This document shows, piece by piece, positions 10,038 to 27,316 of a DNA stretch of 33,801 nt; the stretch's first letter is position 1; the number at the start of each line of letters is the position of its first letter. The stretch covers positions 1 through 33,801 of the forward strand of contig PUOA01000243.1 of NCBI GenBank assembly GCA_003551925.1. The letters are read 5' to 3'. Both the position numbers and the translations under genes were made by a program. The notes under the pieces are model-generated. The model saw only the letters and a list, made by a program, of their open reading frames with translations. It was not told the DNA's origin and searched no databases. The stretch comes from Paracoccaceae bacterium. GTDB taxonomy: Bacteria; Pseudomonadota; Alphaproteobacteria; Rhodobacterales; Rhodobacteraceae.

Positions 10038-11204
10038 ATGAAGATCGCCATTGCCGGCCTGGGCTATGTGGGGCTGTCCAACGCCATCGTGCTGGCACGC
10101 CAGCACGAGGTGACCGCCGTTGACGTCTGCGTCGAGCGCGTGGCGGCGCTGAACGCAGGCCGCACTCCGGTCGAGGACACGCTCGCCCGCGCGCATCTGG
10201 CAACGGGAACGCTGCGGCTGCGCGCCACCACCGACGCCGCCGCCGCCTATGCGGATGCGGAGTACGTGTTCATCGCCACGCCGACCGATTACGACCCGGC
10301 CACCAACGCCTTCGACACCACCAGCATCGAGGCGGTCATCGCGCAGGTGCTGGCGGTGAACGATCGCGCGGTGATGGTGATCAAGTCCACGGTTCCCGTA
10401 GGCTACACCAAAGGCGTTCGCGCGCGGTTCGGCTGCGACCGGATCGTGTTCTCGCCCGAATTCCTGCGCGAGGGCCGCGCGCTCGAGGACAATCTGCACC
10501 CCACCCGGATCGTGGTGGGCGAGGTCAGCGCCCGCGGCGAGGCCGTCGCCGATCTGTTGCGCGGCGCGGCGCTGGCCGACGTGGTGCCGGTGCTGCTGAC
10601 CGATCCGACCGAGGCCGAGGCGATCAAGCTCTTCGCCAACACCTACCTGGCCAGCCGCGTCGCCGCGTTCAACGAGGCCGACACGCTGGCGATGGACCTC
10701 GACCTCGACGCGGGCGAGATCATCGACGCGCTGTGCCTCGACCCGCGGATCGGCGCGATCTACAACAATCCGTCCTTCGGGTATGGCGGCTACTGCCTGC
10801 CGAAGGATTCGAAGCAGCTGCGCGCCAATTTCGACGACGTGCCGCAGGCGCTGATCTCGGCCACGCTGGCCTCGAACGACGCGCGCAAGCGGGCAGTGGC
10901 CGACAGCATCGCCGCGCGTGGGGCGGCGAAGGTCGGCATCTACCGGCTGGTGATGAAGCAGGGGTCGGACAATTTTCGCGCCTCGGCGATGCAGGACATC
11001 ATCGCGCTGCTGCACGAGCGCGGCGTCGACCTGGTCGTGCACGAGCCCGAATGGCAGGGTGCGGAGTGCCTCGGCCAGCCGCTCGAGCCCGATTTCGACC
11101 GCTTCGCCGACGGCTGCGACCTGATCGTCGCCAACCGCATGGTGGCCGAGCTTGCACCACACGCGGCCAAGGTCTTCACCCGCGACATTTACGGGCAGGA
11201 CTGA
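10038..11204 (+). CDS. ugd: UDP-glucose 6-dehydrogenase (catalytic residues intact)
   Basis: GLGYVGLS Rossmann motif, EFLREGRAL, EAIKLFANTYLA, NNPSFGYGGYCLPKDSKQL catalytic Cys motif, KQGSDNFRAS; 388 aa, the E. coli Ugd class rather than GDP-mannose dehydrogenase. Confidence 0.93.
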   Translation: MKIAIAGLGYVGLSNAIVLARQHEVTAVDVCVERVAALNAGRTPVEDTLARAHLATGTLRLRATTDAAAAYADAEYVFIATPTDYDPATNAFDTTSIEAVIAQVLAVNDRAVMVIKSTVPVGYTKGVRARFGCDRIVFSPEFLREGRALEDNLHPTRIVVGEVSARGEAVADLLRGAALADVVPVLLTDPTEAEAIKLFANTYLASRVAAFNEADTLAMDLDLDAGEIIDALCLDPRIGAIYNNPSFGYGGYCLPKDSKQLRANFDDVPQALISATLASNDARKRAVADSIAARGAAKVGIYRLVMKQGSDNFRASAMQDIIALLHERGVDLVVHEPEWQGAECLGQPLEPDFDRFADGCDLIVANRMVAELAPHAAKVFTRDIYGQD

Positions 11205-11232
11205 GCGTTCGGCACCGCACCGGGCGGGCTTT

Positions 11233-11263
11233 CAACAATCGTCCCCGAAATGAACGATTGTTG
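11233..11263. promoter_or_regulatory. Perfect inverted repeat CAACAATCGT-N11-ACGATTGTTG between the two UGDH-like genes
   Basis: 10-bp perfect arms, 11-nt loop; no T-run immediately after. Confidence 0.6.
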
Positions 11264-11320
11264 CCCTGATCGGCGGGTATCCCGTTCGCATTGCACGCAC
11301 TCACAGAGAGGAGACCCGAC

Positions 11321-12424
11321 ATGAAAATCGCGATCATCGGTTTGGGCGGCGTCGCACTCGCCGACGCGCTGGCGCTTGCCCGGACGCATGAGGTGGTGAT
11401 GACCGGCCCGGTGCCGGACCGGGTGGAGGCCATCAACACCGGCGCCTTCGACCTGTGCGACCCAGCGCTTGCGCCGTATCTTGCCCGTTATCCGCTGCGG
11501 CTGAGCGCCAGCCTGCATACCGACGCGGCACTCGACGGCGCGGATGCGGTGATCGTGGCACCGCCGCTGTCATTCGATCCCGAGACGGGCGCCGCGCAGC
11601 TGGCCGAACTCGACAGCCGGATCGAGATGGCCGCGCGCCGCAGGCCCGGAGCGTTGATCGTGGTGCGCTCGGCGGTGCCGGTGGGCTACTGCGCGGCCAG
11701 GCGCGCCGAGACCGGCAGCCCCCGGATTGTCTACGCCCCCGAATTCGCGCGTGAGGGGCACCGCCTGAGCGCCGTGCTGCACCCGCAATTCCTGATCGTC
11801 GGCGACCGCGGCGCGGCCGGGAAAAAGGCGCTGGCGCTGCTGGCCGAGGCCGCGCTGAGCAACGCCATCCCCACCCGCGCCATCGGTCCCGCCGAGGCCG
11901 AGCTCACGCGCCACCTGTCGACGCTGTTCCAGGCCGCGCGGCTGGCCTATTTCAACGAACTTGACAGCTACGCGCTCCATCACGGGCTGGACGCGCGGCA
12001 GATCATCGATGGCGTCAGCCTGGACCCGCGGATCGGACCCCACGCGAACAACCCGTGCTTCGGATACTCCAGCCGGTCGCTGCCGCTGAGCGTGAACATG
12101 CTGGCGCCGCATCTCGACCCCGCGCGCACGCCGCTCCTTGCGTCGCTCGAAACCGCGCACAGCGCGCGCGCCCAGGCGCTGACGCACCAGATCGTGCAGC
12201 GCGCGCCGGGCGTGGTGGCGTTCTACGCGCCCGCCGACGCCACGGCGCTGCCGTCGGGGCTGGCGCAGATCAGGGCACGGCTCGAGGCGTCGGGGATCGC
12301 CACATATGTGCAGCGGACGCTGCCGCAGGCGGGGGACGACATGGTCATCGCCCAGCGGATGACCGCCGAGCTGGCCGCTATCCCGGCCAACGTGTTCACC
12401 CGCGACCATTTCATGCGCCGCTGA
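11321..12424 (+). CDS. UGDH-family paralogue, probable pseudoenzyme
   Basis: Collinear with the 10038-11204 product, but GLGYVG->GLGGVA, YGGYCLPKDSKQ->YSSRSLPLSVNM, and the IKLFANTYLA Lys and SDNFRAS motifs are lost; intact ORF. Confidence 0.88.
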   Translation: MKIAIIGLGGVALADALALARTHEVVMTGPVPDRVEAINTGAFDLCDPALAPYLARYPLRLSASLHTDAALDGADAVIVAPPLSFDPETGAAQLAELDSRIEMAARRRPGALIVVRSAVPVGYCAARRAETGSPRIVYAPEFAREGHRLSAVLHPQFLIVGDRGAAGKKALALLAEAALSNAIPTRAIGPAEAELTRHLSTLFQAARLAYFNELDSYALHHGLDARQIIDGVSLDPRIGPHANNPCFGYSSRSLPLSVNMLAPHLDPARTPLLASLETAHSARAQALTHQIVQRAPGVVAFYAPADATALPSGLAQIRARLEASGIATYVQRTLPQAGDDMVIAQRMTAELAAIPANVFTRDHFMRR

Positions 12425-13087: not shown

Positions 13088-14686
13088 TCAGGGAGGCGAA
13101 TGGCGCACCCGCTGGACCGACTGCGACACCAGCGGGGCTTGCGGGTCCCCCGACGCGATCGAGCTGACCTTGTGCCAGAGCTCGGCGAGCGAGGTGTCGT
13201 TCGGATGCGCGTCGCGCAGCACGCCTTGCACAGAGAAATCCTGCGCCAGGTTCACATCGATGACGACGTCGATGAAGGGCGCGCCGAAGGTGACGCCTTC
13301 GCGCGATTCCGGATAGGACCAGCTCACCCGGCCATTGCGCTGATCGCCGACGAACCCGTGGTCGATGGTCAGCTGATCGAGCACCGCAGCCGGGCTGTGC
13401 GTGCCATCGCGCGTCATCAGATCATAGGGCGGCGTCAGCGTGATCGCTGCGTCGGGATCGGCGTCCCAGTCGCCTGTGGCCTGCTCGGCCGGCGCCTCCA
13501 TCGACAGGCAGGAAACGCCGAGACAGCGCATCGCGGCTGCGGTGTCATCATCGAGCTCGGCGCGCGACAGCCGGAAGGCGCGCGCCGTGCGCATCTGGAC
13601 CGTGTCCATCACCATGCGGTACGAGACATGCGGCGCCGGATCGTCCTGGGGCAGCGCCTTCATGCGCTGTGGCCCCATGTTGAAGCGATCGATCTGCACG
13701 AAGCTGATGGGGGTCGTGTAGGCCTTGGGCGGGAACGGCCCCATCTCCTCCATCCCGTAGCGGATGCGGTAGCGGGCATGGACCTGCGGCGCCTCTTCCT
13801 CCTCCAGGATCAGCAGGGCGCGGGTCATGGGGCCAAGGCTGTTGATGGCGCGGAAGGTCTCGGGGTCGGGCCCGGCGGCGGCCTCCAGAAACCGGTGTTC
13901 AACGGCTTCCCAATCCAATGCCTCGTAGCCTTCGATCCCCGTGAACAGCTCGGCAAGCTCGTTCGGCGCACCCCGCGTGATGTCGGGGGCGCCGAGCCCG
14001 GAACGCTCGCCCTCGGGGATCTGCTCGAGAAAATGCGCATTCACCCAGCCCGACCCACCAGGCAGGCCGGGATAGAGCACCTCGACCCAGGTGCCGCCAT
14101 TGACCTGCGCGGTGCCCTCGCCGGTGGCGACGTTCACGCCATCCGGGGCGATCCGCGCAATGATCGTGCTGCCCGGCACCCCGGGGCGGTCCCGGATGTT
14201 GAGCTTGTCGTCGGCATCGACGTTGACGATGCGGTGACGCGGCGCGTCGGGCGGCGGGTTCACGCGTTTCGGCGCGGAAAACGGGTCATCCTGTGCGGGC
14301 TCGGCCGGGGTGGTATCGCTTGCGGACCCGGTCGCAGGCGCGGGCGGGGCGCGGTCCGCTTCGCCCCAGTCGCTGCTCACTTGCAGTTCCGCCACGGCCT
14401 GCAGGGCGACATGTCGCTCCAGAAGTTCCTCCTGCATGAACTCGAGCACGACCTCCACGGCCGCGTCCCCGTGGGGTGCCAGCCGTTCAAGGATCGCCGC
14501 GCGCTGCGTCGCGCTCGCATCCTCGAGCGCGGCAACGTCTCGGATGATCTCGGCATCGTGGGCGACCGCAAGCGCCGGCGCAAGGGGCAGACCGACCGCC
14601 ACGGCAAGCAGCGCAATCCGGCGCCAGGCGGGCTGCGCGCGCGTCCCGAAGGGCGTGAGGGTGCGTTCGGTCAGTGTCGGATCCAT
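13088..14686 (-). CDS. Exported protein with SH3b-like domain and C-terminal region of unknown function
   Basis: Start at 14686 preceded by AGGAG; signal-like LLAVAVGLPLAPALAVA; DDKLNIRDRPGVPGSTIIARI...TWVEVLYPG...GWVNAHFLEQI resembles bacterial SH3. Confidence 0.75.
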   Translation of the reverse strand: MDPTLTERTLTPFGTRAQPAWRRIALLAVAVGLPLAPALAVAHDAEIIRDVAALEDASATQRAAILERLAPHGDAAVEVVLEFMQEELLERHVALQAVAELQVSSDWGEADRAPPAPATGSASDTTPAEPAQDDPFSAPKRVNPPPDAPRHRIVNVDADDKLNIRDRPGVPGSTIIARIAPDGVNVATGEGTAQVNGGTWVEVLYPGLPGGSGWVNAHFLEQIPEGERSGLGAPDITRGAPNELAELFTGIEGYEALDWEAVEHRFLEAAAGPDPETFRAINSLGPMTRALLILEEEEAPQVHARYRIRYGMEEMGPFPPKAYTTPISFVQIDRFNMGPQRMKALPQDDPAPHVSYRMVMDTVQMRTARAFRLSRAELDDDTAAAMRCLGVSCLSMEAPAEQATGDWDADPDAAITLTPPYDLMTRDGTHSPAAVLDQLTIDHGFVGDQRNGRVSWSYPESREGVTFGAPFIDVVIDVNLAQDFSVQGVLRDAHPNDTSLAELWHKVSSIASGDPQAPLVSQSVQRVRHSPP

Positions 14687-14986
14687 TTCGGGGCTCCTTT
14701 CCATCGCGAAGGTGGGGATCAGCGGCCCGCGCAGCGGATTGCGTCGGCCGGCGCGCAATGCGCTTGCGGCAGGCCCGGAGCGCAGGGGCCTCCAGACCCC
14801 CGGTCGCGCACTGGCGCCCGAAGGGCAGCGGTGCCTGCCCGTTTCCGTGCGGTTCGGGAATCATCTGCACCGCAGGTCACGCTGATCCCGTCGCCTTCGG
14901 GCGTGCTGTCATGAAACCCTTGCGCAAGCTGATCGCGATTGCGCCGGGATACGCCGTGAATCGCGGGGGGGTTCCGGGACGCAGCC

Positions 14987-16567
14987 TCATATCGGATTGT
15001 CGTTGAGCAGCGCGCTGCCGTCGCTGCGGCCCTCGAACTCCAGGGTCCGATCGCCGTCCTCCGTGGGCATGGTGAACATCTCGAGCGCTTCTGCCGCGCC
15101 CATAACGACCGCTTCATCCAGAAGCGGGATCGCGGCGGCGCGGGACAGCGCCTCGGCGACACCGGTCATCGACAGCGTCGAGACCAGATGCGGCAGCGCG
15201 TCACCCGAATCGAGTGTCATGTCGGCATCCAGCAGGATGCGTGCGCCAAGCGCCTGCAGGCGCCCATCCATGCTGACTTCGAGCCGCTCCACCGCGTCGA
15301 GCAGTTGCTGTTCGGGCGATCCGTCCATCATCGCAGCCCCGACCGCGCCCGCCACGGCCCCGACGATGTGCTGCGCGGCCACCGCCGTTCCGTCAAGCGT
15401 CAGCGCAAGGCTGAGCGGTTCGCGGTCCAGCGCGCCCTGAGGGTCGATCATCGCCCAGACATCGGCGCCGGGGATGACCTGATCGAGCAGGACTTCCAGC
15501 CCGATATCCTGCGCACCCTCGCCGGGGACGGCGGGCAGGTTGAACGCGATGCGCTGCCGATCGGCCGTCAGCGACAGATCCGCCGATCCGTCGGCGTCCG
15601 GCCCCGCCATCATCTGGTGCAGGAACCCCAGCGCGACACCCCCGTCGGCATCAAGCCCGCTGGACTCCAGCGCGAGCGACACCCCATCGATGCCGTAGGA
15701 TGCCTCCAGCTCCGCGCGCTCCATCGACGAGCGCGCCACATCATCACCCGCGCGCTGCTCGGTCACGATGTTCTCGGCGCGGCTGCTGAACTCCAGCGTC
15801 GCCCCGTCCTGCAGCGCGTCCATGTCGAACAGGATATCGGTGTCCTGATCGAGCCCGTCATTCCGCGCGGCGATGCTGAACGCGTCCATCCGGGTCGTCA
15901 CGCGCTGCGCGGCATCGGTCGCGTCGATGCGCGCCGCGTCGGCGCGGATGCCCAGATCGAGGCTGCGCGCCGAGGTCTCGAATTCAAGCGCGAACCCCTC
16001 CAGATGCGCCGCGACACCCGAGGCGTGCTGCGCGCCTTGAAACACGTGCTCGACGCTGCCGCCGCGGAACCGCAGGACGTCCGCGGGCAGGGCGGCGGCG
16101 AAATGCGCATCGCCCCCCGACCGCAGGCTGAGGGCGGCATGCTCCGCGTTGAGCGCGAAATAATGCGTCTCCTCGGCGACATGGTCGACAAGCTTGCCGC
16201 GCACATCGCCGTCCGGGCGCGTCGCAACCAGCGCCGAGTGCGCGCCATCGGCGTGCGGAACGATGCCGATCTCGTCGATCCAGAGCTCCTCGGTCGCGGC
16301 CTGCGTCTCGATCACGCGCACGTTCTGCAGAACGACCGTGTCACCATCCATGCGCCGCGCCTGCGCGACGATTTCGATCCCCGCCCGGTCGAGCAGCGCC
16401 TCGAGATGCGCGGGGATGTCGGCGTCGAAGGTCGCTTCCGTGTCGATATGGTCGAGCGCACCGCCGTGGCTCCCGCCCATGACCGACACACTCGATGCCA
16501 TGAGGGCGAGCGCCGATGCGAGGGTCGCGGTCAGGACGGTCGACAGGCGTCGGGCATCATGTTGCAT
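14987..16567 (-). CDS. Exported acidic protein of unknown function (possibly DUF2125/DUF945-like)
   Basis: Start at 16567; signal peptide-like LSTVLTATLASALALMASSVSVMG; no catalytic motif recognised; family guess is from overall texture only. Confidence 0.6.
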   Translation of the reverse strand: MQHDARRLSTVLTATLASALALMASSVSVMGGSHGGALDHIDTEATFDADIPAHLEALLDRAGIEIVAQARRMDGDTVVLQNVRVIETQAATEELWIDEIGIVPHADGAHSALVATRPDGDVRGKLVDHVAEETHYFALNAEHAALSLRSGGDAHFAAALPADVLRFRGGSVEHVFQGAQHASGVAAHLEGFALEFETSARSLDLGIRADAARIDATDAAQRVTTRMDAFSIAARNDGLDQDTDILFDMDALQDGATLEFSSRAENIVTEQRAGDDVARSSMERAELEASYGIDGVSLALESSGLDADGGVALGFLHQMMAGPDADGSADLSLTADRQRIAFNLPAVPGEGAQDIGLEVLLDQVIPGADVWAMIDPQGALDREPLSLALTLDGTAVAAQHIVGAVAGAVGAAMMDGSPEQQLLDAVERLEVSMDGRLQALGARILLDADMTLDSGDALPHLVSTLSMTGVAEALSRAAAIPLLDEAVVMGAAEALEMFTMPTEDGDRTLEFEGRSDGSALLNDNPI

Positions 16568-16840
16568 TCGATCTTTCCCTTTGGTTTCAAAGTGAAGGGC
16601 GTAACCTCTCACATCACGACTGGGTCGGCACCATGCGGCGACAGGCGCCATGGATCAAGCCTTGTGTGCCGCGCGGTGGGTGCCGATTCCGTGAAACCTG
16701 TCTTGCAGGACCGGGGAGGGCGATCATCGATCACCTTGAGCCAGCCGAGCCATCATGCGCGGACCCGACCGGGAGATCGCCCGTCGCACCCGCCGCCGTG
16801 CTGCGCCTGGCAAGGACCTGCTGGCGCCTGATGCCGCCCC

Positions 16841-16910
16841 CGCCCTCACCCCGCCCTCACCCCGCCCTCACCCCGGCCCCGCCCTCACTCCGGCCCCCGT
16901 CCTCACCCCC
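16841..16910. repeat. 11-bp tandem repeat, unit CGCCCTCACCC, 3 perfect copies plus degenerate copies
   Basis: Direct reading of cgccctcaccc x3, then cggccccgccctcactccggcccccgtcctcaccccc. Confidence 0.85.
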
Positions 16911-17100
16911 GCACTGCGCGCGGAGCTGCGCGAGAATGCGGCCGGGATCACGCGCCTGCGGCGTGACCGCGATCTTGCGCGACGGGACCGCGCTGCAATC
17001 GGACGCGAGCTGCGCGCCGTCCGGGCCGGGCTGTCGCCGCGGCACCGGCCGTGGCGCCGTGCGTGCAGGAGGTGGTCCCTTCGATGGCCCGCGCGGGCGG

Positions 17101-19332
17101 TTATCCCGCGCTCAGCCTGTCCAGCAACCGCGCCCACGCATCGAGCGTCTCCGTCTCCAGCTCGTCGCGCTTGCTCACCAGCAGCAGCTTCTGGACGCGG
17201 TCGATCAGCTGCACCCGCCAGTCGGGGGCCAGGGTGATGCCCTCGGCCTCGGCCCAGGCCAGCGCCTGCGCCACGAACGGCTTTGCCGCGTCCATCTGAT
17301 CGGCGAAGAGCCGCTCCGGCCGGCGCTCCACCCGGTCGAGCTGCGCGGCCAGCAGCTCGCTGGGCATCAGATCCTCGATGGTGGCGCCCTTCAGCCCCGT
17401 CAGCGCGCCCAGCGCCACCACCGGGCTGGTGTCATGGCCGATCCCTGCGGCCATCGCGCGGCCCTGGTCGGTGTCGTCGACCAGCACCGGCGGCAGGCCC
17501 GCATCCGCGTCGCTCAGCATCCGGGCCATGACGTGCATGATCTCGGCGTTGCAGGCGGGCGCGAAGATCAGGTCGCGCTTCGGCACGAAGCGGCCGGCGG
17601 CGATGCACAGCGTCTTGATCATGCTCAGGTAACGCTGTTCGATCACGCCCTGCACCAGCGCGGGCTGGGCGCCGTACATGCTGGCCTCGGCCACCGCCAT
17701 GTTGAGCGCTGCGCGCACCGCAAACGCCGCCCCGCGCTGGGTGTCGGTGCCTTCGGCCATCAGCAGATCGGCCGTGGCGCGGGTCGATCCGTCGCGGTCC
17801 ACATAAACCTTGCGCGCCCGCGCCAGACGGTCGGCATCGACCAGGAACGGCGAATGCGTGGTATAGAGGATCTGGTTGGCGGCGGCGAGCCCGTCGAAGA
17901 ACGCCGACAGGTCGCGCTGCGCGAGCGGGTGCAGCGAATGGCCCGGCTCATCGAGCAGCAGCACGCAGTTGTCATGCGCGCCCCTTGCCTCGTGCAGGAA
18001 CACCAGAAAGAAGCTCAGGAACCACTGCAACCCGGTCGAGCGGTGCTCGAGCTCGACCTCCTGCGGGCGGCGCGCATCGGCGACCCAGATGCGGAAATGG
18101 TTGCCGTCGGCCTCGAACCGGAAGCGGTAATCGCCCTGCTTCCACCACTCGGCGAAGCGCTCGGTCAGCTTGGTGCCCGCCGATTGCAGCAGGATCGAGC
18201 GGGTGCGCTTGGCCTGCGCGATCCGGGCCAGGATCTCGGGGTCGGGCTGGTGGTGCTGGCCGCGCAGCCGCATGATCGCGGATTTGAGGACGCCGGTTCT
18301 GCCCTCTTCCTCGATCATGCGGGCCTCGGCCTCGTCGCGCAGGTCGCGGAAATCGCGGCCAAGCTCGAGGATCTCGCGCGCCTCGACGCCCACGAACTCG
18401 AACAGCACCCGCAGCGTGCGCGCCTTGGCGCTTTCCTTGGCGCCGAGGTCCGGGCGGGTCATGTTCTCGACCACATGCGGCAGGTAGATCTCGGAATCGA
18501 GGTTGCCGTAATTCGAGTAGTAGACGAATTGCGGCAGCCGCTCGGTCACCGCGCGGCGCACTTCATCGCGTGAGGCCGGGTCGGGTGACATCATCGCCGC
18601 CATCTGCGTGCCCAGCGTCTTCTGCAGCCCGCGCAGCAGCGTGACCACCGTGCTGGTTGCCGGCGGGTCCTCGGGGATCAGCGCGGCGACGGCGTTGCGC
18701 GCCAGCCGCATGTCGTTGGCGGTGATCTGCGCCAGCCCGTTGAGGTCATCGAGGATCGCCGTGACCACCTGAAGCGCCTGCGGCTGCAGATCCTCGCGCA
18801 GGGTGGTCAGGTCGCGCTGCGCCTCCTCCAGCGCGGCGAGGGCGGTGCGCACCGCGGCGTCGTCATCGCGGGTGAAATCCGGGAACGCGATGCGGTAGCC
18901 GCCGTCATAGAGCCGCGCCACCGACACGCGGCGCGCCTGCGGCTCGGGGATGCCGGCAAGCTCGGCCAGGACCGTCGAGGCGCGGCCCGTGTCGAACTCG
19001 GCAATGATGAACTGGAACTGGTCGGGCGCGTTGCGGATGGTGACGAACAGCGCCTTGGGGTAGTCGGCGATGGGCTCGATCTCGCCGCCGCTGGCGGGGT
19101 TGAGCTTCCACAGCGGCAGCAGCAGGTTGGTCTTGCCGGATTCGTTGACGCCGATCAGCGCGGTGACCTTGTCGAGGCTCAGCCACCCGGAATCGCTGAC
19201 GGAGCGAAAGTTGCTGACGCGGTAGCGGGTGAGGGTGAAGCCGTCAGCGCGCGCGGGTGCGGGCTTGTCCGCATCGGCATCCGGGGCCGCGGTGGCGTTC
19301 TTATGGATCTGAAACTCCGTCTCGTGGCGCAT
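17101..19332 (-). CDS. OLD-family AAA ATPase with TOPRIM-like C-terminus
   Basis: Start 19332 preceded by GGAGG; Walker A GVNESGKTNLLLP, NCVLLLDEPGHSLHP Walker B, TTHSPFLVD, C-terminal ALVQGVIEQRYL...PVLVDDTDQGRAMA TOPRIM-like. Confidence 0.87.
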   Translation of the reverse strand: MRHETEFQIHKNATAAPDADADKPAPARADGFTLTRYRVSNFRSVSDSGWLSLDKVTALIGVNESGKTNLLLPLWKLNPASGGEIEPIADYPKALFVTIRNAPDQFQFIIAEFDTGRASTVLAELAGIPEPQARRVSVARLYDGGYRIAFPDFTRDDDAAVRTALAALEEAQRDLTTLREDLQPQALQVVTAILDDLNGLAQITANDMRLARNAVAALIPEDPPATSTVVTLLRGLQKTLGTQMAAMMSPDPASRDEVRRAVTERLPQFVYYSNYGNLDSEIYLPHVVENMTRPDLGAKESAKARTLRVLFEFVGVEAREILELGRDFRDLRDEAEARMIEEEGRTGVLKSAIMRLRGQHHQPDPEILARIAQAKRTRSILLQSAGTKLTERFAEWWKQGDYRFRFEADGNHFRIWVADARRPQEVELEHRSTGLQWFLSFFLVFLHEARGAHDNCVLLLDEPGHSLHPLAQRDLSAFFDGLAAANQILYTTHSPFLVDADRLARARKVYVDRDGSTRATADLLMAEGTDTQRGAAFAVRAALNMAVAEASMYGAQPALVQGVIEQRYLSMIKTLCIAAGRFVPKRDLIFAPACNAEIMHVMARMLSDADAGLPPVLVDDTDQGRAMAAGIGHDTSPVVALGALTGLKGATIEDLMPSELLAAQLDRVERRPERLFADQMDAAKPFVAQALAWAEAEGITLAPDWRVQLIDRVQKLLLVSKRDELETETLDAWARLLDRLSAG

Positions 19333-21115
19333 CGGTGTCCTCCATCTGCGGTCCGTCGATGCTCTCGGGCATCGTGCCGGGTGTCGGTGTGGCCGCGGGT
19401 CCGTCAAGATACTCCGCGGGGGCCGTGATCCGGTCGTCGCGCACCGCGGCGACCGCCTCGACCAGCAGGAACATGGCGATCAGCCCGACAATCGCGGTCT
19501 GGCCCAGTCGCCACCGTTGGGCCGCCGCTTCGACACTGCGCGGGATGGCGTAGCCCATCCGCCGCGCGGCGCGCCGTTTGGCGGCCCAGACGTTTTCCAA
19601 CTGTCTCACCAACGCACGAGGCGGCGCCGTAATCCCGTCGAAGAACACCGAAACGCCGATCCGCTGCGCATGCGCGGTGACGGCCACCCCCAGCGCCACC
19701 GCGATGCCGAGGCCCACGGGCCAGAAGGCGGCAGGCGCGGCCTGCAGCACCGGGGCGGCAACGATGGGGTTCAGCACCGGCCAGATCGCCGGCAGCGCCA
19801 GCGACAGCCCGGCGAGGCCCGCAAAGGGCAGCGCCAAGGCCTCGGACCGCGTGGGCGGCGCCTTGGGCGGCGAGAGCCACATCAGCGCCAGCGCGCGCGC
19901 CACCAGCAGCGTCGTGGCGACCCCCGACAGCGTCAGCGCCAGCGTCAGCCACGGCGCCCAGACCGCCGAGCCCTCGGCCAGCGCCGCCTTCAGCGCCTCC
20001 TTGCCCAGCGCGCCCGAGGTCGCGGGCAGGCCCGCCAGCACCAGCGCCGGGACCAGCCACAGCACGGTGATCAGCCCGCGCGACGTGGCGCTGCCCTGCG
20101 CCGCGAAGGCGCCCACGCCCAGAAACAGCGCGCCCTTCGCCAGCGCGTGATGCGCGGCCAGGAACAGCAGCAGCGGCGCGATGGCGGGCCATGCCTCGGG
20201 CGTCATCAGCCCCGCGCCGAGGCCGAGCGCGATGATCCCCATCTGCCCGACGCTGGAAAAGCCCAGCACCTCCTTGGCGGCGCTGCGCTGCACGCCGAGC
20301 AGGAGCGCGGCGAAGATCGTCACCATGCCTGCCGCCATGACCACGGTGCCGTGGTCGTCATAGGCCACCACCCCCAGCGGCACCGCCGAGACGATGCCGA
20401 ACAGCCCCGCCTTGATCATCGCCCCCGACAGCACCGCCGAGGCCGGCACGGGCGCGGCACCATGCGCGGGCGGCAGCCAGAAATGCAGCGGCATCACGCC
20501 CAGCTTGACCCCGAACCCGGCCAGCAGCAGCGCCACCGCCAGCCCGTCAAGCGCAGCGGTGCGCAGGTCCGCCAGCAGGATCGAGCCCACCTGCGTCGCC
20601 GCCAGCACCAGCCCCGAGAACAGGATCAGCTCGCCCGCCACCACGAAGGCGATATAGAGCTTCGCCGCCCGGTCCGCGCTGTCCGAGCGTGTGTGGATCA
20701 CCAGCCCGTAGGAGGCGAAGCTCATCAGCGCAAAGGCGGCGTAGAAGGTCACCGCGTCCTGCGCCACGATCAGCCCCAGGTTCCCGCTCATCGCCAGCAG
20801 GAACGCCACGCCGAACGCGGTCGCGCGCGGGTCGGCGCGCATCCAGTGGCGCGCCGCGGCCCCCGCGGCAATCCACAGGACCGTGGTGAACACCAGAAAC
20901 AGGCGCGATGTGTCGTCGATCCCCAGCGTCAGCCCCAGCATCAACCACGCGCCCGTCACCTGCAGCGGCGCAGTGTTCAGCAGCGCCAGCACCAGCGCGG
21001 GCAGCGGGGCGAGCGGCATCATCCGCCACAGGACCGGGCGCGCGCCCTCCCACAGCAGCGCGAACGCCATCGCCAGCGGCCAGCCCAGCGCGAACAGGAA
21101 GGCGGAAAGCGTCAT
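19301..21115 (-). CDS. Proton-conducting antiporter subunit, MrpD/NuoM/NuoN-like (third copy)
   Basis: MPLHFWLPPAHGAAPVPASAVLSGAMIKAGLFGI, MSFASYGLVIHT; many TM helices; start 4 bp after the preceding gene's stop. Confidence 0.88.
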   Translation of the reverse strand: MTLSAFLFALGWPLAMAFALLWEGARPVLWRMMPLAPLPALVLALLNTAPLQVTGAWLMLGLTLGIDDTSRLFLVFTTVLWIAAGAAARHWMRADPRATAFGVAFLLAMSGNLGLIVAQDAVTFYAAFALMSFASYGLVIHTRSDSADRAAKLYIAFVVAGELILFSGLVLAATQVGSILLADLRTAALDGLAVALLLAGFGVKLGVMPLHFWLPPAHGAAPVPASAVLSGAMIKAGLFGIVSAVPLGVVAYDDHGTVVMAAGMVTIFAALLLGVQRSAAKEVLGFSSVGQMGIIALGLGAGLMTPEAWPAIAPLLLFLAAHHALAKGALFLGVGAFAAQGSATSRGLITVLWLVPALVLAGLPATSGALGKEALKAALAEGSAVWAPWLTLALTLSGVATTLLVARALALMWLSPPKAPPTRSEALALPFAGLAGLSLALPAIWPVLNPIVAAPVLQAAPAAFWPVGLGIAVALGVAVTAHAQRIGVSVFFDGITAPPRALVRQLENVWAAKRRAARRMGYAIPRSVEAAAQRWRLGQTAIVGLIAMFLLVEAVAAVRDDRITAPAEYLDGPAATPTPGTMPESIDGPQMEDTDAPRDGVSDP

Positions 21116-21119
21116 CGGC

Positions 21120-22619
21120 TCACTCCAGATATTCGATGCTGACCACGAAGCGCGTCCACTCCAGCGGGCTGAAGGGCGCGTTGGCGAAGCTGCCCACCAC
21201 CAGCACCAGCAGCGCGGTGGTGATCGGCGGGCCGGCAAGCCACCAGCCGATGCGCGGGCGGCCCGGCGTCTCGGGCGTGTCGGAGCCGTCGCGGAACCAC
21301 GCGCGGTGCAGCATCGGCAGGAAATAGACCGCGTTCAGCAGGCTCGAGCCCAGCAGCAGCGCGATCACCCACGCCGCGCCGGCGTCCAACGCGCCCTGCG
21401 CCAGATACCATTTGCTCACGAACCCGGCGAGCGGCGGCAGCCCGATCATCGCCAGCGCGGCGAGCGAGAACGCCAGCATCGTGCCCGGCATCGCGCGGCC
21501 CACGCCGTCCATCGCGCTGACCTTCTTCACGCCCAGCCCCTCGGCCAGGTTGCCGGCGGCCATGAACATGGTGATCTTCATCAGCCCCTGGTGGATCAGA
21601 TGCGCGAGCGCCCCCACCGCGGCGATGGGGCTGGCCAGCGCCACGCCGAGCGTGATGTAGCTGACCTGGCTCACGGTCGAATAGGCGAGGCGCTTCTTGA
21701 TGTCGTCCTGCGTGATCGCGCGCAACGAGCCATAGAGGATCGTCACCGCCGCCAGCGCGGCCAGCGGTGCGGTCAGCCCCAGCACCTGCGCGGTCTCGAT
21801 CCCGAACACCTCGTAGACGACGCGCATGATCCCGAAGGCGCCCGCCTTGACCACCGCCACCGCGTGCAGCAGCGCCGAGACCGGCGCCGGCGCGACCATG
21901 GCGATCGGCAGCCACGCGTGGAACGGCACCAGCGCGGCCTTCACCCCCAGCGCCCCCACCAGCACCACGAACAGCAGCTGCGCGGCGAGGCGCTGGTCGT
22001 TCGCGACCGCGCCCAGCACGCCGCCGGGGACGAAATCGGTGGTGCCCGCCAGCACCCACAGCCCCAGCGTGCCCAGCAGCAGCACCAGCCCGCCGACCAG
22101 CGTGTAGATCAGATAGATGCGGCCCGCGCGCAGCGCCTCGGCCGAGCCGCGGTGGATCACCAGCGGATAGGTCGCCAGCGTCAGCAGCTCGTAGAAGATC
22201 AGGAAGGTGAACAGGTTGCCCGCCATGGCGATGCCCACGGTCGCGGCCACGCACAGGCTGAAGAAACCGAAGAACCGCGCCCGGTGCGGCCCGCGCTCCA
22301 GATAGCCCACCGAATACACGGTGGTGATCAGCCACAGGATCGCCGACAGCGCGATGAACAGGATCGCCAGCGGGTCGGCCTGCAGCTTGAACTCCAGCCC
22401 CGGCAGCATCGTGAAGCTGAGGTCGTAGATCACGCCCTGGCTGACCTTCCAGCTCAGCCACGCCACCAGCGCGACCTTCAGCGCGGCCATGCCAAGGTTG
22501 ATCCCCGTGCGCAGCCGCGCCGCGCTCTCGGGCAGGGCAAACAACACCGGTGACGCCAGCAACGACGTCAGCAGGATGAAAAGCGGCAGCAGCGGCATGT
22601 CGGCGGAGAGGAGGGTCAT
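21120..22619 (-). CDS. MrpD/NuoN-like antiporter subunit (second copy)
   Basis: VPFHAWLPIAMVAPAPVSALLHAVAVVKAGAFGI, DDIKKRLAYSTVSQVSYI; ATGA overlap with the next gene upstream. Confidence 0.92.
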   Translation of the reverse strand: MTLLSADMPLLPLFILLTSLLASPVLFALPESAARLRTGINLGMAALKVALVAWLSWKVSQGVIYDLSFTMLPGLEFKLQADPLAILFIALSAILWLITTVYSVGYLERGPHRARFFGFFSLCVAATVGIAMAGNLFTFLIFYELLTLATYPLVIHRGSAEALRAGRIYLIYTLVGGLVLLLGTLGLWVLAGTTDFVPGGVLGAVANDQRLAAQLLFVVLVGALGVKAALVPFHAWLPIAMVAPAPVSALLHAVAVVKAGAFGIMRVVYEVFGIETAQVLGLTAPLAALAAVTILYGSLRAITQDDIKKRLAYSTVSQVSYITLGVALASPIAAVGALAHLIHQGLMKITMFMAAGNLAEGLGVKKVSAMDGVGRAMPGTMLAFSLAALAMIGLPPLAGFVSKWYLAQGALDAGAAWVIALLLGSSLLNAVYFLPMLHRAWFRDGSDTPETPGRPRIGWWLAGPPITTALLVLVVGSFANAPFSPLEWTRFVVSIEYLE

Positions 22620-24067
22620 GGGGTCATCCCGAACGGATAGCCAAGCTCGATGAAGCTCAGGATCGGCGCGGCGGCCAGGCCCAGCCCGATGGCGCCCAGC
22701 GCCAGCACCAGCGGCGGCAGGTCTGCGAGCGCCCAGCCCTGATGCTCGGCCACCGGCGCGCGGACACGGTCAAAGCGCAGGAACCCGGCCATGACGCGGC
22801 TGAAATAGCCCACCGACATCAGCGTGCCGACCATCGTCACCGCCACCCAGTGCCAGTAGCCCGCCGCCATCGCGCCCTCCATCAGCGACCACTTGCCGAT
22901 GAAGCCCAGGCTCGGGGGCAGCCCGATCAGGCTGATCGCGGCCAGCGCGAAGGTGAACTGCGCCAGCGTCGGGCGCACCGGGGTGCGGTCCAGATCGCGG
23001 ATGATGTCGTGCCCGATCTCGTCCTTGATGCGGCCGGCGGACAGGAACATCGCCGCCTTGGCCGCGCCGTGGGCAAGGATCAGCAGCGCCGCCGCCTTCC
23101 AGCTTTCGGTCAGGCCGACCTGCCCGGCGCGCGCGAAGGCGATGAAGATCAGCCCGATCTGCACCACGGTCGACCACGCGACCAGCATCTTCAGCCGCTC
23201 GGCCCGCAGCGCCTGAACGCCGCCCCACAGCACCGCGCCCGCACCCAGCGCGCCGATCAGCGCGACGAGGATCTCGTCGGGCAAGGGCATGTAGGTGGTC
23301 AACCGCAGGAAGATGTAGAGCGCGGCCTTCACCACCAGCCCCGACAGCAGCGCCGAGGCCGGCGCCGTGGCATTGGCATGCGCCGAAGGCAGCCAGAAAT
23401 GCAGCGGAAACAGCGCCGTTTTCAACAGCAGCCCCACCACCATCAGCGCCAGCGCCGTGCTCATCGCCGCCGATGGTTCGGCCCCGATCAGCCCGGCGAA
23501 ATCGAGCTGCCCGATCTGGAGATAGACGAACCCCACGCCGAGCAGGAACAACAGCGCGCCCAGGATCGAGGCATACATGTATTCGAGCCCCGCGCGCAGC
23601 GCCGCGCGCGTGCCGCTGAGCACCGTCAGCCCGACCGCTGCGAGCGCGATGACCTCGATCATCACATACAGGTTGAAGATGTCGGTGCTGAGATAGACGC
23701 CGTTCATCCCCGTCAGCAGCAGCAGCCACAGCGGCCAGAAATACTGCTGCAGCCGCGCGTTGGCCGTGCCCTTGAAGCTGTCGAGCGCGCCCAGCGAGAC
23801 CAGCAGCCCCACGCCGGTGGTCAGCACCAGCATCGCCACGCTCAGCCCGTCGGCGCGCAGCGCGATGCCCAGCGGTGGCTCCCACCCGCCCAGCGGCGTG
23901 CGCACCGCGCCTGCGGCGTGGACCTCGGTCGCCAGCCACGCCACCGCGGCGCCGGTCAGCGCCATCGTGGCCAGCCCGATGGCCGCCGCCGCGCGCGGTG
24001 CCACAAAGGCCGCCATCGCGCCGAACAGCGGCGCGAACACCACCAGCGTCAGGGGATCAAGCGTCAT
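22616..24067 (-). CDS. mnhD: MrpD/MnhD-like antiporter subunit (first copy)
   Basis: LFPLHFWLPSAHANATAPASALLSGLVVKAALYIFLR, RLKMLVAWSTVVQIGLI. Confidence 0.92.
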   Translation of the reverse strand: MTLDPLTLVVFAPLFGAMAAFVAPRAAAAIGLATMALTGAAVAWLATEVHAAGAVRTPLGGWEPPLGIALRADGLSVAMLVLTTGVGLLVSLGALDSFKGTANARLQQYFWPLWLLLLTGMNGVYLSTDIFNLYVMIEVIALAAVGLTVLSGTRAALRAGLEYMYASILGALLFLLGVGFVYLQIGQLDFAGLIGAEPSAAMSTALALMVVGLLLKTALFPLHFWLPSAHANATAPASALLSGLVVKAALYIFLRLTTYMPLPDEILVALIGALGAGAVLWGGVQALRAERLKMLVAWSTVVQIGLIFIAFARAGQVGLTESWKAAALLILAHGAAKAAMFLSAGRIKDEIGHDIIRDLDRTPVRPTLAQFTFALAAISLIGLPPSLGFIGKWSLMEGAMAAGYWHWVAVTMVGTLMSVGYFSRVMAGFLRFDRVRAPVAEHQGWALADLPPLVLALGAIGLGLAAAPILSFIELGYPFGMTP

Positions 24068-24347
24068 CTTCGGCCTCGAGGCTGTGCAGGCGGCGGATCA
24101 GGGCGAGCGCGACGGCGGTGGCGCTGACCATGACCACGATGCCGGTGATCACCAGCGCGTGCGGCACCGGATCGGGAGCGTCGGGCGGGCTGCGCCACGC
24201 GGCCACGATCAGCACGAAGCCCGCCCCGACCGAGCACAGCTTCAGCGCCAGCACCCGGCGCAACCGGTTCTGCGCCACGATCGCGCCCACCAGCCCGATG
24301 GCGAAAACGGCAATCCCGGTCACGCCGTAGATGAGGTCAGGCGTCAT
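24057..24347 (-). CDS. mnhC: Na+/H+ antiporter subunit C (NuoK-like)
   Basis: GVTGIAVFAIGLVGAI...LALKLCSVGAGFVLI...DPVPHALVITGIVVMVSATAVALALI. Confidence 0.9.
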   Translation of the reverse strand: MTPDLIYGVTGIAVFAIGLVGAIVAQNRLRRVLALKLCSVGAGFVLIVAAWRSPPDAPDPVPHALVITGIVVMVSATAVALALIRRLHSLEAEDDA

Positions 24348-25308
24348 CGCGGCCTCCGGTCCCGGCTGCGCGTTCGGGCAGGGCCACGGGTTCGCGCCCG
24401 TGGAACAGCGCGGCCAGCGTCACCGCGATGGAGATCGTCACCAGCCCCTCGATCAGCAGGATCAGCGTCTTGGCGTGTTCGAGCGGGTATTCGAACGGCA
24501 TCCGCCCGCCGCCCGTGACCAGCAGCGCCACCGCCGCGAAGGCGCCCGTGCCCAGCACGAAGGCCACCCGCGCCGCGCCGCGATGCGACGGGCGCGGCAC
24601 ATAGAGCCGCGAGAGCAGCAGCAACAGCCCCACCGCCGCCAGCACCGCGCCGCCCTGGAACGCGCCGCCGGGCGCCGACGAGCCCACCCAAAGCAGATAG
24701 GTGCCCACCACCACGATGGCGGGCAGCGTCAGCCGCGCGAAGCCCTGCCAGACCTCGCCCAGCGCCGGGGCGGGGGCGTCCGACAGTCCGCGCTCGATCT
24801 GCCACACGGCGATCACCGCGGCGAGCAGGACGACGACCTCCATCAGCGTGTCATAGGCGCGGAAGTTCAGCAGCACCGCCGTCACCGGGTGGTCGACCCC
24901 GCTGATCGACATCGCATCCGCGACCAGCAGGTCGAACCCCGGCCCGCCGCGCGGGGCGCCCGCAAACGCCGCCGCGAGCCCCAGCGTCAGCAGCCCGCAG
25001 AACGCCGCGTTGGCGATCTGCACGCCCATCGGCACGGGCAGCGGCTCCGGCGCCGCCTTGCGCTCCACGGTCTGGACATGGTGCAGCGTGCGCAACAGCA
25101 GCGCGCCGGTCACGCCGGTGCCGATCGCGGCCTCGGCCAGCGCCACATCGGGTGCGGACAACCGCACCCAGGCCAGCGCCGACAGCAGTCCGAAGACCAC
25201 GAACAGCACGATCGCCGCAAACATGTCGCGCGTCGTCATCGACGCCACCGCAAGCGCCACCACCGCCACCGCCAGCAGCAGATCGAAGATCACCATGGTG
25301 TCGATCAT
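24337..25308 (-). CDS. Fused MrpA C-terminal (MbhD/MbhE-like) and MrpB subunit
   Basis: N-terminal DUF4040-like (MTTRDMFAAIVLFVVFGLLSALAWVRLSAPDVALAEAAIGTG), NFRAYDTLMEV, then MnhB-like SSAPGGAFQGGAVLAAVGLLLLL in one frame. Confidence 0.87.
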   Translation of the reverse strand: MIDTMVIFDLLLAVAVVALAVASMTTRDMFAAIVLFVVFGLLSALAWVRLSAPDVALAEAAIGTGVTGALLLRTLHHVQTVERKAAPEPLPVPMGVQIANAAFCGLLTLGLAAAFAGAPRGGPGFDLLVADAMSISGVDHPVTAVLLNFRAYDTLMEVVVLLAAVIAVWQIERGLSDAPAPALGEVWQGFARLTLPAIVVVGTYLLWVGSSAPGGAFQGGAVLAAVGLLLLLSRLYVPRPSHRGAARVAFVLGTGAFAAVALLVTGGGRMPFEYPLEHAKTLILLIEGLVTISIAVTLAALFHGREPVALPERAAGTGGRDDA

Positions 25309-25601
25309 GACCGCTCCCTGCGCGCGCGCTCGAGCGCATGGCGCGCGATCAGATGGCTGCAGGTGGCGCTGGCGACCACGACAAAGAACCACACCAGCGC
25401 GATGCGGACCACCGCACCGGGCGAGGCCGCCAGCAGCCCCACCCCCAGCGCAACCAGCCCCAGCCCCAGCCCGTCGGCCTTGGTCAGCGCGTGCAGGCGG
25501 CAGAAGATGTCGGGAAACCGCAGCACGCCCACGGTGCCGGCGATGAAGAACACCGCGCCCAGCGCGATCAGCGCGCCCGCGATCAGCTCGAGCGGGGTCA
25601 T
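25305..25601 (-). CDS. mnhG: Na+/H+ antiporter subunit G
   Basis: GTVGVLRFPDIFCRLHALTKADGLGLGLV; ATGA overlaps on both sides. Confidence 0.93.
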   Translation of the reverse strand: MTPLELIAGALIALGAVFFIAGTVGVLRFPDIFCRLHALTKADGLGLGLVALGVGLLAASPGAVVRIALVWFFVVVASATCSHLIARHALERARRERS

Positions 25602-25861
25602 TGCGGCCTCCCGCGCGCGCTCAGCGCCACGAAGGCCACCAGCGTCACCGCCGCGAGCAATGCGAACACCATCGCCACGTCCAGCAGCGCCGGCATCGCC
25701 ATCACCTGCGACAGGATCAGCAGCATGGCAACGGCGGCGGTGCCGAACAGCTGCGCCGCCATCAGCCGGTCCGCGGCGCCGGGCCCGCGAAAGACGCGCA
25801 CCAGCCCGCCCAGCACGCTGGCCAGCAGCACCACGAGGATCCCCCCCAGAAAAGACGTCAT
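25598..25861 (-). CDS. mnhF: Na+/H+ antiporter subunit F
   Basis: RVFRGPGAADRLMAAQLFGTAAVAMLLIL...LLDVAMVFALLAAVTLVAF. Confidence 0.93.
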   Translation of the reverse strand: MTSFLGGILVVLLASVLGGLVRVFRGPGAADRLMAAQLFGTAAVAMLLILSQVMAMPALLDVAMVFALLAAVTLVAFVALSARGRPQ

Positions 25862-25873
25862 GCAAAACCTCCG

Positions 25874-26452
25874 TCAGGATTGCGGCAGCGCAAAGAGCGC
25901 CGCGATCCGCGCTTCCAGCGCGGCCAGATCGGCGTCGAGATCCGCGCGCGTGTCAAGCATGTGCACGATCACCTCGTCGCCCGCGATTTCGGCCGACAGC
26001 GTGCCGGGCAGAAGCGTTATGGTGTTGACGAACATCACCCGCGGCGCGCCGTGGGGCAGCCGCAGCGGGTGGTGCCGGAAGCCCGGGCGCAGCGGCAAGG
26101 CGGGCAGCACCGCACGCCAAGCCACATCGACCGCCCCGCGCACCGACTGCACCGCGAACCACAGCGCAAAGGCCAGCGCCCCGCCCGGGCTGAGCCGCCA
26201 GCCGGGGCTTGCCGGCAAGAGCGCGAGCAGCACGCTGCCCGCGATCACCGCCGGGCCGCCGAACACCCATGCGTCCGGCTGGAACTCGGTCAGCACCGCC
26301 CAGACCAGCGCCAGCACCAGCACCGCCACCAGAAAGCGGCGCCAGCGCGGCGGGGCAGGGGGTGCGGGCTCGGGGATCACGGTCAGCGCGGCGGGCAGCG
26401 ACGGCGTGTCGGCGCCGAGCCCCCTGTCGGTGGCTGGGTCGGTTGTCTTCAT
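25874..26452 (-). CDS. mnhE: Na+/H+ antiporter subunit E
   Basis: MFVNTITLLPGTLSAEIAGDEVIVHMLD; N-terminal TM helices; start at 26452. Confidence 0.92.
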   Translation of the reverse strand: MKTTDPATDRGLGADTPSLPAALTVIPEPAPPAPPRWRRFLVAVLVLALVWAVLTEFQPDAWVFGGPAVIAGSVLLALLPASPGWRLSPGGALAFALWFAVQSVRGAVDVAWRAVLPALPLRPGFRHHPLRLPHGAPRVMFVNTITLLPGTLSAEIAGDEVIVHMLDTRADLDADLAALEARIAALFALPQS

Positions 26453-26673
26453 GTCCCCATCTCCGGTCGTGCGCGGCCGGTCCTGCGCAAGACGCCCCTG
26501 CGCGGCCGCTCGGGCCGGGGGCGCCGTGTCTGTTCCTGTCGCAGCATATAACGCTGTGGACCGCGCTTTCATCCCCAGGGGTGGCCATACGCTTTTCCCA
26601 CATCACGCTGCAGTGAGTGTGGATGAAACCCGCCACCCGCGCGTTGGTTCGGTATCAGCAATCGGAGGACGCC

Positions 26674-27027
26674 ATGTCGATGACAGCATTCAGCGGAAAC
26701 CACATGCAGACCACCCGCGAGCGCTCCGGGCGCCGGGATGGGTTGATCGGCATCTGGGGCCGCATCATCCATCGCGATCCCGAAGCCTATGAGGCGTGGC
26801 TTGAGGAGCGCGACATGTCGCGGATCGTGACCACGCTGCTGCGCCTGAACGAGCGCCAGCTCAACCGCCTGGGCCTGTCGCGCGCGACGCTGGCGCTTGA
26901 CGTCGAGGAACTGGCGATCCGCGCCGAGCAGGAGCTCGACCTCGCCTCCGACATCCTGCGGCTTGTCGATGGCGACGACGGCGACAACCTGCAGTCGGAA
27001 CCGCGCCGCAGCATCGCCGCCGAGTGA
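26674..27027 (+). CDS. DUF1127-like small protein
   Basis: ATG 26674 preceded by GGAGG; LLRLNERQLNRLGLSRATLALDVEELAIRAE resembles the extended DUF1127 motif. Confidence 0.6.
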   Translation: MSMTAFSGNHMQTTRERSGRRDGLIGIWGRIIHRDPEAYEAWLEERDMSRIVTTLLRLNERQLNRLGLSRATLALDVEELAIRAEQELDLASDILRLVDGDDGDNLQSEPRRSIAAE

Positions 27028-27047
27028 GCGGACAGCATGCGCGGAAA

Positions 27048-27071
27048 GGCCGGGTCCGTTGTGACCCGGCC
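27048..27071. terminator. Terminator-like hairpin GGCCGGGTC-N6-GACCCGGCC downstream of the DUF1127-like gene
   Basis: Perfect 9-bp GC-rich stem, 6-nt loop, 20 nt past the stop codon; no T-tract on the plus strand. Confidence 0.55.
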
Positions 27072-27316
27072 GCTGCATGACGGCAGGCGATGCACATCGC
27101 CGCGCTTGCCCGAGCGTCATGGAGTGACGGCGCGCGCGGATCTCGGGGTCCGGACCAGGACCGCGTCGGCGCGCGGCGCCTTTGCGGGACCGGACCGACG
27201 CCGCACGATAACCCGGCGGTGGCCGCCTGCATCTTGAAAAGCGCTGCACCCGTGTTGCGCTTGCTCACCGTCTCGCGGCACAGTCGGCCGATGCTGCCGC
27301 CAGGACGGGTGACCCG

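Follow-up and report, generated by a model that had tools for sequence, protein, structure and literature searches.

This report concerns an OLD-family ATPase gene and the Mrp cation/proton antiporter operon that it adjoins in a contig of 33,801 nucleotides (nt) from a Paracoccaceae bacterium (assembly GCA_003551925.1, contig PUOA01000243.1); this whole stretch is called the window below. The OLD gene is the last of nine genes read on the minus strand and begins inside the gene of MrpD3, so that the 32-nt overlap described in the first-pass annotation of this DNA is borne out. The eight mrp genes follow a non-canonical order, mrpE-F-G-(DE/B fusion)-C-D-D-D, with spacings from mrpE on of +12, -4, -4, -11, -11, -4, and +4 nt, then -32 nt into OLD. 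The genes and sites, from OLD upstream to mrpE, are the following:

17101..19332, minus strand: OLD-family ATPase gene, 743 amino acids, last (ninth) gene of the operon (open reading frame [ORF], Pfam, PADLOC, conserved start).
19301..19332, minus strand: overlap of the MrpD3 tail with the OLD start, 32 nt.
19338..19343, minus strand: OLD Shine-Dalgarno site GGAGGA (sequence; equivalent sites in relatives).
19301..21115, minus strand: MrpD3, third MrpD-like antiporter subunit (Pfam Proton_antipo_M).
21120..22619, minus strand: second MrpD-like subunit.
22616..24067, minus strand: first MrpD-like subunit.
24057..24347, minus strand: MrpC (Pfam Oxidored_q2).
24337..25308, minus strand: fused MbhD/MbhE-MnhB subunit (DE/B; start possibly 25311).
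25305..25601, minus strand: MrpG.
25598..25861, minus strand: MrpF.
25874..26452, minus strand: MrpE, first gene of the operon.

Two start codons are available to OLD, ATG at 19332 and, for a longer ORF, TTG at 19407 in the same frame. We favor the ATG, since GGAGGA lies upstream of it and an M-R/K-H start is kept in linked genomes with differing upstream sequence. The overlap falls in the hydrophilic tail of MrpD3, where the ratio of nonsynonymous to synonymous differences (pN/pS) is 0.93 versus 0.37 in the MrpD3 core, all such values being rough because synonymous sites are near saturation. Since this tail is unconserved, the exact overlap is probably without function for MrpD3, and close coupling is the conserved feature. 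A sigma-70 promoter scan of 16400-27400 found no promoter, the terminator-like matches lie elsewhere than between mrpD3 and OLD, and an Rfam search of the window returned no match.

The OLD protein is matched in Pfam by AAA_15 (1.6e-16) and AAA_21 (7e-15), and PADLOC ranks Old first (8e-18), with AriA and others behind. Its closest solved relative by alignment profile is the Thermus scotoductus OLD protein (TsOLD; 6p74, 8e-12), and the match extends from Walker B as far as the LVEG motif, in which E377 lies. Two regions are distinguished:

17836..19239, minus strand: ATPase region, residues 32-499 (alignment; all motifs conserved).
17104..17835, minus strand: degenerate Toprim-like C-terminal domain, residues 500-743 (alignment; weak fold match).

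The ATPase region contains Walker A (G61-K67), a signature-like motif (431-440), Walker B (458-464), and H493; K67, S432, E462, and H493 are invariant in an alignment of 37 homologs. An AlphaFold2 model built with 37 homologs has a mean predicted local distance difference test (pLDDT) score of 81, and its matches in the PDB are retron PtuA, OLD, GajA, AriA, and SMC/Rad50 ATPases; because the template modeling scores of the whole model are low (0.2-0.3), the family is supported here only through which proteins rank first. Residues 263-499 have a pN/pS of 0.18 and the C-terminal domain one of 0.49; the value for the whole gene, 0.37, resembles that of the MrpD3 core. Judged from these values, the gene is under purifying selection.

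The C-terminal domain has lost most of the first metal site of the Toprim nuclease. In TsOLD, metal A is bound by E377, D431, and D433 and metal B by D381, S478, and E480 (PMC7049728). In the window protein Q561 replaces E377 and T621 replaces D433, so that two of the three metal-A ligands are gone, while D619, E565, T651, and E653 are retained at the remaining positions (equivalences of E377 and D381 were taken from the profile alignment, those of the other residues from motifs LDxDxxG and EDL). Outside the clade, V-E-G/x and DxD are retained in all 15 homologs (from Bacillota, Bacteroidota, other Proteobacteria, G212, G113, and others). Within the Mrp-associated clade, every member except L116 has Q, P, G, R, or A at position 561, and the DxD pair is broken everywhere except in L048 and L116, two copies that look transitional. 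Fisher tests of clade versus outside give p ~1e-9 for position 561 and ~1e-8 for DxD, uncorrected for kinship. In the model of the domain (pLDDT 84), the only matches with probability above 0.7 are the OLD C-terminal regions 6njw and 6nk8; a Toprim fold is likely, not proven, because both matches are weak (E 0.03 and 0.09). We think it very likely from these substitutions that nuclease activity is strongly reduced. An altered nuclease (for example, nicking or RNA cleavage) that uses the metal-B residues to act on nucleic acid during ion stress would agree with the four retained residues and with TsOLD metal-A mutants, whose activity falls 12-15-fold while nicking remains (PMC7049728). However, residues at 561 vary and position 621 is filled by T, S, G, A, K, or P, among others. 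Such a spread points to loosened constraint and not to a newly conserved site, and we consider an enzyme of this kind improbable.

The mrpD3-OLD junction, for which a synteny search had been proposed in the first-pass annotation, is not peculiar to the window genome. It occurs in ten loci from several genera (the window, L017, L018, L021, L022, L023, L047, L089, L114, and L115). The spacing of the two genes ranges between -59 and +37 nt, and across these loci MrpD3 and OLD each fall to ~54% identity. G363 fits the junction across a contig break, where the ORF upstream of OLD (L004) matches the L089 MrpD3 C terminus (E 2e-12, two-sequence comparison); G405 (L025) also fits across a contig break, more weakly. 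G616 keeps a remnant (L117 8200-8700), in which a deletion that removed three antiporter genes and the OLD N terminus fuses the mrpC start to OLD codon ~302; an mrp operon of a second type, type B (see below), remains in that genome. OLD stands apart from mrp in G399/G400, G025, G344, G404, G406, G407, G409, and G786, and in G399/G400 it probably separated later, because the OLD tree places these copies within the linked clade. G408 has two copies of the clade: L089, joined to mrpD3 by an overlap of 4 nt, and L028, located elsewhere. Unrelated neighbors, the pattern named beforehand as speaking against coupling, are found for most relatives across the wider family, in Hymenobacter, Paenibacillus, and Lachnospiraceae among others; the Mrp-linked clade does not show this pattern. 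Cousins of the gene lie on conjugative plasmids of Pseudosulfitobacter (L130 6034-8097) and Paracoccus (plasmid pAMI7, L131 5340-7442), the latter adjoining a Tn3 transposase gene.

Mrp operons of the window layout form two clades, type A and type B (support 100/100), and the OLD clade accompanies type A. In a family sample of 397 genomes, in which each gene was looked for on its own, both were found in 6, type A alone in 0, and OLD alone in 1 (G351); in an order sample of 395 genomes, the counts were 7, 1 (G708), and 1 (the G616 remnant). Only the top candidates per genome were scored; the samples overlap, since G696 and G776 share coordinates with G366 and G344. When all or nearly all candidates were scored in control genomes negative for OLD, such an MrpD3 was present in 0 of 30 and 1 of 76, the one being type B. 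On an rpoB tree each trait changes 10 times, and ~8 independent pairs agree while none disagrees (p 0.008-0.016), with G708, which would disagree, standing outside the test because it gave no rpoB match. A third component, DUF2333 (PF10095), is present in 24/24 module genomes versus 0/45 others.

In most genomes, genes for an extracytoplasmic function (ECF) sigma factor, an anti-sigma-like protein, and the DUF2333 protein adjoin type A mrp or OLD; in the window genome, contig C331 (L203) carries the ECF sigma gene, DUF2333, and the gene of a probable anti-sigma factor, with matching motifs. The three genes form a conserved divergent cluster that usually lies beside type A mrp (L203 7096-9573; L205, L206, L211, L212, L216), and a single membrane helix is predicted in the DUF2333 protein. 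An ECF-type motif, GGATGAAA-N12-GCGT[TA] (= GGATG-N16-CGT[TA]), occurs upstream of the mrp operon, the ECF sigma gene, and DUF2333; this strict pattern was read from aligned upstream sequences and was hence chosen after seeing the data. A matrix was trained on mrpE, DUF2333, and ECF sites only, with no OLD sites, and its threshold was the 98th percentile of 395 other genes. It matched 16/21 type A mrpE, 22/24 DUF2333, and 15/21 ECF genes (training sites included), and 7/11 unlinked OLD genes, none of which was used in training (p 3e-9; L019 and L020 within this count are near copies). Upstream of type B mrpE it matched 1/6, and it matched none of 10 linked OLD, 11 solo OLD, or 5 dynamin-like genes. 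The last of these encode dynamin-family GTPases with a hydrophobic segment, found without the motif beside unlinked OLD (L027 5936-7354, L029 5935-7353, L049 11445-12866, and L024 5432-6904). When the matrix was trained without the window genome, its best match in the 33.8-kb window was at 26618-26651 (plus strand) and its second best at 26544-26577 (minus strand), one on each side within the mrpE intergenic region, and shuffled windows gave no match above 18. A guess at an EcfG-like consensus for the promoter had yielded nothing useful. The sites beside mrpE are as follows:

26544..26577, minus strand: ECF-type promoter motif of the mrp-OLD operon, core TGAAA-N12-GCGTT at 26550-26571 (matrix scan).
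26618..26651, plus strand: divergent ECF-type promoter motif of the small gene beside mrpE (matrix scan).
26674..27027, plus strand: small divergent gene, start placed after the motif (ORF open from 26623; no Pfam match).

Companion small genes lie beside mrpE or DUF2333 in relatives; by eye, the end of the small gene in the window resembles DUF1127-like small proteins.

OLD thus either lies behind the mrpE promoter or has a copy of the motif itself; no other evidence speaks as strongly for a functional association, and we regard a shared regulon as highly probable. The link between OLD and the Mrp antiporter is real and conserved, through operon position or, when the genes are apart, through a common promoter motif. 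By contrast, linkage without function, in which a single insertion placed a mobile OLD gene downstream of mrp and the two were then passed on together, is disfavored and seems to us very improbable. The OLD family is indeed patchy and mobile, and one ancestral junction could account for the linked loci on the OLD tree, but the same motif on unlinked copies, a co-occurrence that persists after separation, and the differing branching orders of Mrp and OLD all argue against it.

On sequence evidence, we lean toward recruitment into a stress regulon. One branch of the mobile class 1 OLD proteins, in Rhodobacterales, would have joined a regulon under ECF sigma control together with a three-antiporter Mrp (type A) and the DUF2333 membrane protein, and would serve there as an ATP-driven accessory whose nuclease is largely inactive. 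In the window genome, OLD is the ninth operon gene behind the mrpE motif at 26544-26577, the motif presumably being recognized by the ECF factor, and co-expression is probably what was kept, since many copies outside the operon carry a motif of their own. Because all ATPase motifs are kept and two of the three metal-A ligands are lost, the protein should work mostly as a switch or scaffold driven by ATP and not as a DNA-degrading effector. Its most likely task would be to assist or tune the antiporter or the membrane when the cell is under Na+, alkaline, or envelope stress. The first-pass idea of an ATPase responding to ion or membrane stress fits the conserved Mrp link and the shared motif, while a direct role at the antiporter is only tentatively proposed. 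In a more specific form, to which we likewise give less than even credence, a domesticated defense-type OLD nuclease serves as an ATP-sensing regulator or assembly factor that gates or organizes the Mrp/DUF2333 assembly by nucleotide state.

Several observations weigh against recruitment into the regulon. The motif is missing from 4/11 unlinked OLD copies (L028, L046, L048, and L116), and its assignment to the neighboring ECF factor is one that we infer. G708 has type A Mrp without OLD, and G351 has OLD without type A Mrp, in an assembly that is 88% complete. Shared ecology contributes to the co-occurrence, because most of the sampled genomes that were found via OLD belong to one broad clade and several come from similar saline habitats. 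In addition, some nicking could remain through the retained metal-B residues.

The first-pass annotation had also raised a defense effector using membrane potential, a proposal that fares poorly because the metal-A site is lost in the clade and because intact cousins, not this clade, are found on conjugative plasmids. A subtler version would keep OLD in phage defense independently of its Toprim domain, behind a stress-induced promoter, with Mrp as a mere expression vehicle and a regulon that answers envelope damage, including phage. It draws on E. coli YbjD, in which Toprim is dispensable and the anti-phage effect requires the ATPase domain only (PMC13261556), on intact cousins that are solitary, two of them on conjugative plasmids, and on the dynamin-like GTPase adjoining OLD in four loci. 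Defense genes are expected to turn over, however, whereas this OLD has long stayed in one regulon and is inherited almost perfectly together with a single Mrp type and DUF2333; in addition, no copy of the clade was found in prophage or viral contigs. We consider this version unlikely. Plain phage defense was rejected, because the search gave no related locus in viral contigs and a single phage record, which is distant.

Known OLD systems offer partial parallels. Like the class 1 proteins TsOLD (6P74), P2 Old, and E. coli YbjD, the window protein has an ABC-type ATPase with Walker A/B and an H-loop and a C-terminal domain that can be aligned to the Toprim LVEG motif. It differs from them in its lost metal-A ligands, in belonging to an mrp operon or promoter group instead of standing isolated, in a clade-specific N-terminal extension, and in its length of ~740 amino acids. 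It is thus built on an OLD scaffold, yet it falls outside the definition of class 1, an isolated gene with an intact Toprim. Gabija GajA (class 2) and PARIS AriA (class 4) have related ATPase domains, and GajA senses nucleotides (PMC10568477). Among the window neighbors (the mrp genes and two genes without a Pfam match), there is neither a UvrD/PcrA/Rep-like helicase gene gajB nor a separate AriB Toprim gene, and unlike those two systems this is not a defense locus. A parallel in arrangement is the archaeal class 5 protein Cran1, likewise an OLD ATPase whose gene shares an operon with that of a membrane protein and which seems to work outside defense; unlike the window protein, it keeps all nuclease residues, acts in the cell cycle, and has a membrane partner that is not an antiporter (PMC12796447). 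The operon itself has the E, F, G, B, C, and D-type subunits of Mrp antiporters, whereas it lacks a long MrpA, whose parts are split over the DE/B fusion and three separate D-like proteins, and it carries an ECF-type motif and the extra OLD gene.

Within the open-licence literature, no paper that we found describes OLD together with an antiporter, and DUF2333 appeared in one paper only, on type VI secretion. To our knowledge, OLD proteins are known almost solely as anti-phage nucleases. Here a whole clade, found in some marine and soda-lake bacteria, has mostly lost the nuclease site, kept the ATPase, and become tied to one antiporter type and DUF2333, which suggests a job outside virus defense. 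Cultured members (Rhabdonatronobacter sediminivivens, Roseivivax jejudonensis, and Histidinibacterium aquaticum) make this apparent turn of a defense enzyme to housekeeping testable; in R. jejudonensis, OLD is unlinked and has a motif of its own. DUF2333 gains a functional context in the group, a promoter motif with named candidate targets is defined, and OLD proteins would be placed within ion homeostasis if the antiporter-regulator reading is true.

Some further features surround these loci. Directly downstream of type A mrp, L088 (10143-14030) carries a DabA inorganic-carbon transporter gene and a proton-antiporter-like partner; L093 and L117 have gene pairs in a similar arrangement, with Pfam identification for L088 only. 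Downstream of OLD in the window, the gap contains short CCCCGCCCTCA-type repeats (16840-16910), followed by two same-strand genes (13088-16567; 532 and 526 amino acids) whose products each have an N-terminal hydrophobic segment and gave no Pfam match. A tandem pair of UDP-glucose/GDP-mannose dehydrogenase-family genes lies at 10038-12424.

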